A stretch of 47,716 bases of DNA from Candidatus Yanofskyibacteriota bacterium (GTDB lineage Bacteria > Patescibacteriota > Minisyncoccia > JACQLN01). A model generated the notes under the pieces. It saw nothing but the letters and a program-made list of their open reading frames with translations. It ran no database searches and was not told the origin of the DNA. Of this stretch, positions 29,016-40,228 are shown one piece after another (position 1 is the first letter of the stretch; each line of letters opens with the position of its first letter). The translations under genes and the position numbers were made by a program. The stretch lies in the NCBI GenBank assembly GCA_943359335.1, contig CALRHC010000007.1, positions 1 through 47,716 on the forward strand. The letters run 5' to 3'.

Positions 29016-29086
29016 CGGGGCGTCGTATATTGGTAGTACGCCTGTTTTGGGAACAGGTAGGCCGAGTTCGATTCTCGGCGCCCCGA
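29016..29086 (+). tRNA. tRNA-Pro (anticodon TGG)
   Basis: Acceptor CGGGGCG/CGCCCCG, anticodon loop TTTGGGA between CCTGT/ACAGG, T-arm CCGAG-TTCGATT-CTCGG; no encoded CCA. Confidence 0.95.
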
Positions 29087-29133
29087 CTGAACGAAGTGAA
29101 GGAGGGACGGAACACGACAATTTATTGTCGTGT

Positions 29134-29235
29134 GTTAGGAATCGAAAACCGGAGCATGTCCCGATTTTGACGAGGGACGCGAGGTGGGGTCGCGAGCGGC
29201 GAAGCCGACTTGTGACCGATTCTCGGCGCCCCGAC
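29134..29235 (+). other. Structured module ending in a copy of tRNA-Pro 3' end
   Basis: GTCCC/GGGAC stem, GGTCGC/GTGACC stem, then CGATTCTCGGCGCCCCGAC identical to 29069-29087. Confidence 0.75.
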
Positions 29236-29303: not shown

Positions 29304-29374
29304 GCGGGTATCGTATAGTGGTAATACCACAGCTTTCCAAGCTGTTGCTAGGGGTTCGATTCCCCTTACCCGCT
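29304..29374 (+). tRNA. tRNA-Gly (anticodon TCC)
   Basis: Acceptor GCGGGTA/TACCCGC, anticodon loop TTTCCAA between ACAGC/GCTGT, T-arm GGGG-TTCGATT-CCCC; no encoded CCA. Confidence 0.95.
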
Positions 29375-29430
29375 CAAAATGAAAATAATCCCAATGTAAG
29401 TTGGGGTTATTTTTGTTTATAGAATTGGTT

Positions 29431-29549
29431 TGGGGAAATCGAAAGCCGGAACGATGTGCCACCAAGTTGGCGGCACAGTGAGGCGGGGTCGCGACTTTGT
29501 TTGAGCGACGGCGAAAACAAAAGCTGTGACCGATTCCCCTTACCCGCTC
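29431..29549 (+). other. Structured module ending in a copy of tRNA-Gly 3' end
   Basis: GTGCC/GGCAC stem, GGTCGC/GTGACC stem, then CGATTCCCCTTACCCGCTC identical to 29357-29375. Confidence 0.75.
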
Positions 29550-39313: not shown

Positions 39314-40228
39314 GTGACTATAAAATCTCTATTCACCGATTACCTAAACCACCTAGAAATAGAAAAAAACCGTTCTAAAAAAACGGTGGAAAATTACGAT
39401 CGCTATTTAAGGCGCTTTTTCGATTACGCTAAAACCGATTCCCCTACCGGAATTTCTAACGATGTGGTTAGAAATTACAGATTACACTTGAACCGCATAA
39501 CACCTCCATTAAAAAAAATTACTCAAGCTTACCACTTAATTGCTCTACGTAACTTTTTAAAATATTTAGCCAAGCGCGATGTAAAAACTTTAACTGCCGA
39601 TAAAATAGAACTTGGAAAAGTTGGCGACAGGCACATAGACTTTTTAGAAAATGAAGAAGTAGAAAGATTACTAGACGCAGCCAACGGAAACTCTGTTAAA
39701 AATTTACGAGACAAAGCATTATTAGAACTTTTATTTTCCACGGGGCTACGTGTTTCCGAACTTTGTTCGTTAAATAAAGAATCGGTTAATTTAAAACGCG
39801 GAGAATTTGCAGTTCGTGGTAAAGGCGACAAAATTCGTGTGGTTTTTCTTTCCGAACCCGCAAGGCGTTCGTTAGAAAATTATATTTCTAAAAGACAAGA
39901 TATAGATGAAGCGCTGTTTGCCAGAGGAACAAGCGACAAGAAACAAGGTACAAGTAAGACAAGTAAAGATTTAAGAATTACACCTAGAACTGTTCAAAGA
40001 ATTGTAAAACATTACGCAACTAAAGCCGGAATTATAAAAGATATTCATCCACATACCTTACGCCACAGCTTTGCCACTGATTTATTAAGAAACGGTGCAG
40101 ATATACGCTCCGTTCAAGCAATGCTAGGGCACTCCAACATAACTACAACTCAAATCTATACCCACGTTACAGATACAGGTTTAAAAGAAATTCACAAAGC
40201 CTTCCACGCACGCAGAAGAAAAGAATAA
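39314..40228 (+). CDS. Tyrosine recombinase XerC/XerD family
   Basis: LLFSTGLRVSELCSL, HTLRHSFATDLLRNGADIRSVQAMLGHSNITTTQIYTHV. Confidence 0.95.
   Translation: MTIKSLFTDYLNHLEIEKNRSKKTVENYDRYLRRFFDYAKTDSPTGISNDVVRNYRLHLNRITPPLKKITQAYHLIALRNFLKYLAKRDVKTLTADKIELGKVGDRHIDFLENEEVERLLDAANGNSVKNLRDKALLELLFSTGLRVSELCSLNKESVNLKRGEFAVRGKGDKIRVVFLSEPARRSLENYISKRQDIDEALFARGTSDKKQGTSKTSKDLRITPRTVQRIVKHYATKAGIIKDIHPHTLRHSFATDLLRNGADIRSVQAMLGHSNITTTQIYTHVTDTGLKEIHKAFHARRRKE
39929..39965. repeat. 7-nt-period repeat array inside xer gene
   Basis: ACAAGCG ACAAGAA ACAAGGT ACAAGTA ag ACAAGTA. Confidence 0.85.

Follow-up and report, generated by a model that had tools for sequence, protein, structure and literature searches.

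tRNA Genes Followed by a Copy of Their Own 3' End

The window, that is, the whole stretch of 47,716 nucleotides of DNA analysed here, carries a tRNA-Gly(TCC) gene at 29304..29375 on the + strand (ARAGORN; Rfam RF00005, 64.6 bits). The final 19 nt of this gene, C56 to C74 (CGATTCCCCTTACCCGCTC), lie at 29357-29375 and recur at 29531-29549 (+), 174 nt apart. This exact repeat had been claimed in a preliminary description made from the sequence alone, and the claim held, as did the hairpin described 3' of the tRNA (about 29385-29412) and the module that follows it (29432-29530). The hairpin is terminator-like and belongs to a linker at 29376..29431 (+), which was recognised from its sequence and has a homologous counterpart at the Gly-TCC gene of the same-genus genome G003. 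The linker forms the variable 5' part of the inserted element.

The module begins with a guide strand, GGGGAAATCG, at 29432..29441 (+), identified by folds and by complementarity across 49 elements. It is complementary to the T-loop and the 3' half of the T-stem of tRNA-Gly, with one extra A. The guide is followed by a core of the type termed class A at 29442..29530 (+), which ends in GTGAC and is supported by covariation and by a class A covariance model, R1 (81.4 bits). Within this core, stem P2 pairs GCC (29445-29447) with GGC (29482-29484) and includes a hairpin, stem P3 pairs GTCGCGAC (29488-29495) with GCTGTGAC (29523-29530), and the joining segments are AAA (J1/2) and GGG (J2/3). The distal copy of the tRNA-Gly 3' end (29531..29549) follows directly.

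The tRNA-Pro(TGG) gene at 29016..29087 (+; ARAGORN and Rfam RF00005) is followed by the same arrangement. Its 3' end at 29069-29087 is likewise repeated exactly, at 29217..29235 (+), with a spacing of 148. Between the two copies lie a linker at 29088..29135 (+; sequence and fold) with a hairpin P0 at about 29111-29134, a guide strand, TAGGAATCG, at 29136..29144 (+; guide complementarity and fold) and a class A core at 29145..29216 (+; R1, 82.7 bits; fold z = -2.99). In this core P2 pairs ACC (29148-29150) with GGT (29183-29185) and P3 pairs 29189-29196 with 29209-29216. The preliminary description had also claimed a break point common to both tRNAs, and this held: the Gly and Pro copies both begin at T-loop C56, directly after GTGAC.

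Anatomy and Fold of the Elements

The elements are non-coding, approximately 100-200 nt long and fold into three arms. From 5' to 3', a unit consists of the tRNA 3' end, a variable linker that often has a terminator-like hairpin and/or the hairpin P0, the 9-nt guide, AAA, P2 with a G-N-A/GA internal loop, GGG, P3, GAC and the C56 of the distal copy. The GAC|C56 junction is exact in 73 of 83 well-preserved units. The distal copy starts at C56 of the same tRNA and reaches approximately base 74-76, and its length peaks at 19-21 nt, which corresponds to the tRNA 3' terminus. The inserts, some 90-250 nt in length, contain no ORF.

Structurally, the core is a three-way junction that is conserved and covaries strongly. 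Among 88 distinct units found by R1, standard pairs occupy 93% of pair cells and double changes occur at 19 of 20 pairs, and the covariation score is 0.435 as against 0.160 for shuffled alignments (reached in 0/500) and no more than 0.081 for slid controls. As the alignment of these units was fitted to the model, the absolute pairing and covariation values are biased upward. The fourth P3 pair is a conserved G.T (G.U in RNA) in 77 of 86 units. In stem P1, formed by the guide and the target, the TCG/CGA pairing has an alternative, GAG/CGA, in which tandem sheared G.A replaces the pairs at bases 57-58. With two conserved G.T pairs left out, G.T outnumbers A.C in the stems by 70 to 37, which points to a folded + strand.

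The Guide Strand

Two features were missed by the preliminary description, namely the covarying three-way junction of the core and the identity of its 5' strand as a 9-nt complement of bases 56-64 of the same tRNA. The complementarity was measured in 49 elements by pairing each guide with the tRNA copy of its own element and, crosswise, with those of other elements. Own and cross values are 0.94 and 0.31 at base 59, 0.80 and 0.51 at base 63, and 0.71 and 0.35 at base 64; from base 65 on they are close to each other, at background. The excess of own over cross pairing at bases 59, 63 and 64, lost from base 65, shows that the guide is local to its tRNA and ends at base 64.

Over bases 59-64 in 134 units, departures from the tRNA number 77 cells in the guide and 56 in the distal copy, and the two have changed together against the tRNA in only 7 cells of 804. 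Guide and copy thus drift separately and joint change is rare, which argues that the match is set at insertion and decays later while the tRNA is conserved. Selection on the guide for pairing with the tRNA was considered and rejected; a first count of 73 to 14 was suggestive, but a symmetric count gave about equal drift. Maintenance of P1 by compensation was rejected on the same 7 cells of 804. In the tRNA-Ala unit of the window's own genome the guide fits the Arg T-loop, which could favour guide-directed choice of the site over copying of the guide from the target, although this is no more than a possibility.

Occurrence Within and Beyond the Genome

The window's own genome (G000; 592 kb, 43 tRNAs) was surveyed by comparing each tRNA with its downstream DNA. 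Elements lie behind 10 of the 43 tRNAs, each element followed by the 3' end of its own tRNA. Seven have a class A core (Pro, Gly-TCC, Trp, Ala-GGC, His, Lys-CTT and Arg-GCG), matching the 7 copies found by R1 in this genome, and three have a second type of core, class B (Tyr, Lys-TTT and Met). For 9/43 tRNAs, the 350 nt downstream contain a match of at least 14/17 to their own bases 56-72, while the tRNAs without elements score 8-11/17, and the repeats are therefore not due to chance. In the tenth case, Arg-GCG, the copy is interrupted by a small palindrome.

Class A matches to R1 were found in 31 of 93 genomes of the same class and in 30 of 287 genomes across the phylum, with up to 12 per genome. 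A pattern scan of GTDB genomes returned at least 111 stretches from many Paceibacteria groups, Saccharibacteria, Microgenomates, Berkelbacteria, WS2 and Elusimicrobia. Of 118 parsed matches, 95 lie within 450 nt behind a tRNA, and these span 19 amino-acid types. The elements are thus widespread in a major bacterial radiation (Patescibacteria/CPR) and in a second phylum, Elusimicrobia, and they occupy up to a quarter of the tRNA genes of one genome.

The preliminary description had argued that a common break point combined with a tRNA-specific copy speaks against random duplication. It had proposed a search of other tRNAs for a GTGAC|C56 junction followed by the local 3' end, absence of which elsewhere would leave a local tandem duplication. 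The argument is supported: the pattern was found behind 19 amino-acid types, in many Patescibacteria groups and in Elusimicrobia, and absence elsewhere is ruled out.

Filled Sites, Empty Sites and Other Targets

Filled and empty versions of the same site can be compared in close relatives. The window's genome has a filled tRNA-Trp site that is empty in G003, the sequence downstream being the same; the Arg-TCT site is filled in G002 and empty in G003; and the Glu-TTC site is filled in G003 and empty in G000-G002. In Elusimicrobium, the tRNA-Asp site holds an element in G096 and one with a different core in G099 and is empty in G093, G094, G095 and G098, with the native flank (TATTTTAGTTTT..) coming after the distal copy, and the tRNA-Met site is filled in G096 and G099 and empty in G098. 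Units also occur in tandem, three at locus L266 and two each at L279 and L096. The syntenic filled and empty pairs, together with the tandem arrays, indicate mobile insertions and not local duplication. An ordinary target-site duplication of fully variable length was also rejected, since most repeats stop at the tRNA 3' terminus. Long apparent repeats at L231, L052, L115 and L296 resemble truncated second units.

Not all sites are in the T-loop. At type 2 sites (L245, L285 and L236) the insertion point is the tRNA 3' terminus (C72) and the guide is complementary to CAC plus the trailer. The unit at L224 lies at the 3' end of rpsI, a gene called by eye from its reading frame, and L291 has the same target sequence. 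The 3' ends of tRNA genes and of rpsI are classical targets of tyrosine integrases in streptococcal ICEs (PMC4701971). At two further loci (L222:2752-2830 and L217:2021-2089) a core apparently sits inside a tRNA gene, near base 26/27 and with no repeat; L222 crosses a run of N, so an assembly error is possible there.

Search for Mobilising Machinery and Known Families

Candidate mobilisers were compared between 31 element-positive and 62 element-negative genomes of the same class, counted by hand from tables. No association with the elements was seen for RVT_1 (10/31 positive and 26/62 negative genomes), the large serine recombinase PF07508 (14/31 and 35/62) or the Y1 transposase (20/31 and 34/62), and all three were rejected as mobilisers for this reason. 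Tyrosine recombinases do not track the elements either (28/31 and 60/62). RVT_1 is absent from the window's genome and from the element-rich genomes G017, G018, G022 and G078, and the Y1 transposase (PF01797) is absent from the window's genome. The sole PF00589 protein of this genome is a XerC-like tyrosine recombinase encoded in the window at 39314-40228 (+). The elements themselves encode no site-specific recombinase, the inserts being ORF-free. A serine recombinase was further rejected as mobiliser at L123, the sole locus examined, where it belongs to a separate element between the tRNA and the module.

Rfam gave no match at gathering score over the elements and none that was convincing in permissive searches, and nothing alike was found in the literature searched, which mostly did not include subscription papers. 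The elements match no RNA or transposon family described among those searched.

Comparison With Known Systems

In one respect the elements behave as tRNA-targeting integrative elements do: the gene stays intact, and the insert is bounded by direct repeats of its 3' end. They share with tyrosine-integrase ICEs and prophages at tRNA 3' ends a fixed T-loop crossover, a regenerated gene 3' end, a repeat equal to that end, tandem accretion and the use of the rpsI 3' end (PMC4701971). Unlike these, they are only 100-200 nt long, carry no integrase or other gene, and place one core at 19 amino-acid types with a guide matched to each target. Integron cassettes and their attC stem have the same topology: tandem arrays, a folded single strand, and an outer stem in which an internal strand pairs with the adjacent strand of the target, in the manner of R''/R' (PMC8946536). 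However, no GTTRRRY/RYYYAAC boxes were seen by inspection, the element meets its target at GAC|C56, the sequence of the stem varies from target to target, there is no ORF, and the genome has only a XerC-like recombinase of unassigned subtype.

Group I and group II introns likewise have a structured core and a guide pairing beside the junction, but the elements have no Rfam intron match, their core is below 100 nt and the tRNA is already complete upstream. Recognition of the target by pairing with a guide inside the element, inferred here, is also a property of IS200/IS605 and other guide-pairing transposons. The elements differ from IS200/IS605 in the lack of a Y1 transposase in this genome, the direct repeat of approximately 19 nt and the pairing 3' of the junction. 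Non-autonomous elements of the MITE or SINE kind and mini-casposons are similarly short and non-coding with a repeated target sequence, and casposons also use tRNA 3' ends. The present elements have no terminal inverted repeats and no partner was found (Cas1 was outside the searched families); SINE-like retroelements are further set apart by the absence of a reverse transcriptase (RVT_1) from the window's genome.

Proposed Explanation and Its Alternatives

The explanation that is favoured, with moderate confidence and without expression or excision data, is a family of very small mobile elements, non-coding and site-specific, whose insertion targets are genes that need an intact 3' end. Insertion is mainly into the tRNA T-loop, between U55 and C56. 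The right end (..GTGAC) is joined to C56 and the tRNA 3' end is regenerated on the left, so that the element is bracketed by a direct repeat running from C56 to about C74-A76 and the tRNA is left intact. Tandem arrays, empty sites in close relatives and a 9-nt target-complementary guide on a three-way junction are likewise established. The steps of movement are inferred. The + strand would fold and its guide would pair with target bases 56-64, and this pairing, stem P1, is predicted to stack coaxially on P3. The P1/P3 stack would set the 3' end of the element directly against C56, the putative site of strand joining, with an unidentified joining enzyme acting in trans. A circular unit, as in integron cassettes, would yield equal tandem arrays and boundaries. 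Both a folded single-stranded DNA and an RNA intermediate remain possible as the moving form.

Several points count against a mobile element. There is no mobilising gene within the elements and none of those tested tracks them. For near-identical cores to occur at different isotypes, a fresh target copy and a guide to match it must be generated in a way that is unexplained, and part of the sites lie behind tRNA 3' ends (type 2) or behind other genes. A bolder reading, possible but less likely than not, is that a guide directs a previously unknown class of mobile nucleic acid, in the form of a very small folded RNA or single-stranded DNA. Here the 9-nt guide would find T-arm bases 56-64, the 3' end would be joined to C56 and the tRNA 3' end rebuilt, with joining carried out by a host enzyme or by the element's own catalysis. 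If true, this would amount to guide-directed insertion on a very small scale, the 9-nt guide lying exactly at the joining point, with a striking target: essential tRNAs, repaired perfectly.

Among the alternatives, mobility at the RNA level is possible. The guided element RNA would be joined to C56 of the tRNA or of nicked DNA and copied by a reverse transcriptase in trans, a route akin to reverse splicing or to target-primed reverse transcription, SINE- or group-II-like. It is supported by the conserved G.U as fourth P3 pair (77/86), the tandem sheared G.A at bases 57-58, the Gly unit's RNA fold (z -2.85, as against -1.64 for the DNA fold), the precise right end with a variable left part, and the excess of G.T over A.C in stems (70 vs 37), which points to the folded + strand. 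Against it stand the lack of RVT_1 matches in the window's genome and the same four element-rich genomes, the Elusimicrobium units placed behind a terminator, and sites at rpsI and tRNA 3' ends that are typical of DNA integrases. A host-kept cis-acting RNA, tuning tRNA processing or termination with the tRNA copy as its working part, would explain the shared strand with the tRNA, the conserved structure and P1 pairing in cis. It is nonetheless unlikely, given the patchy presence with syntenic empty sites, the independent decay of copies and guides with few compensatory changes, and the ability of any isotype to carry an element.

Scars or ends of larger integrative elements (ICE or phage attachment sites) shrunk by deletion could account for a repeat that equals the tRNA 3' end, as in attL/attR, and larger serine-recombinase elements do lie between the tRNA and the module in some genomes (L123). 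However, the L123 element has an attP of its own and entered at the CCA end, where tRNA and module were already in place on either side, and independent scars would not be expected to show one and the same folded core, its guide fitted to the target, at 19 amino-acid types of tRNA, which makes this origin very improbable. Local tandem duplication would produce direct repeats, but a conserved core common to loci, genomes and phyla all but excludes it.

Other Classes and Neighbouring Features

Class B has the form AAGGGGTCGGGAAA..GTGGMGGAAA..TTAAAACCG.. with a longer T-arm complement, and occurs behind Met, Tyr and Lys-TTT tRNAs (L005:526-735, +; L001:433-616, +; and L013, behind tRNA-Lys(TTT)), as well as at Lys-TTT in G002 and Tyr in G004. 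A further class, C (GGGGAATCGAAGGG..CCCGG..AAGGATTCCCC), was seen at L129 and L176 (tRNA-Gly TCC) and at L157 (Ser-TGA). At Gly-TCC it has the same linker hairpin as the window's class A unit, which suggests an exchange of the core in place. A longer class A variant, at L157 (Ser-GCT) and L172 (Glu-TTC), has an extra hairpin and CCAGTTCGTAGAAATTTCC..GGAAATAGGAGG between GGGG and P3.

A small palindrome resembling CCTGCCTGCCGGCAGGCAGG occurs within hairpins and in one tRNA copy (L005, Met unit; L035, Arg-GCG copy). Behind tRNA-Asn at L159, a short ORF that appears GIY-YIG-like by eye is followed by a second T-arm/3' end fragment. The large serine recombinase element at L123:2257-3654 (+) and flanks lies at the CCA end, between tRNA-Leu and a class A unit, and its attL, its attR and an inverted spare attP are readable.
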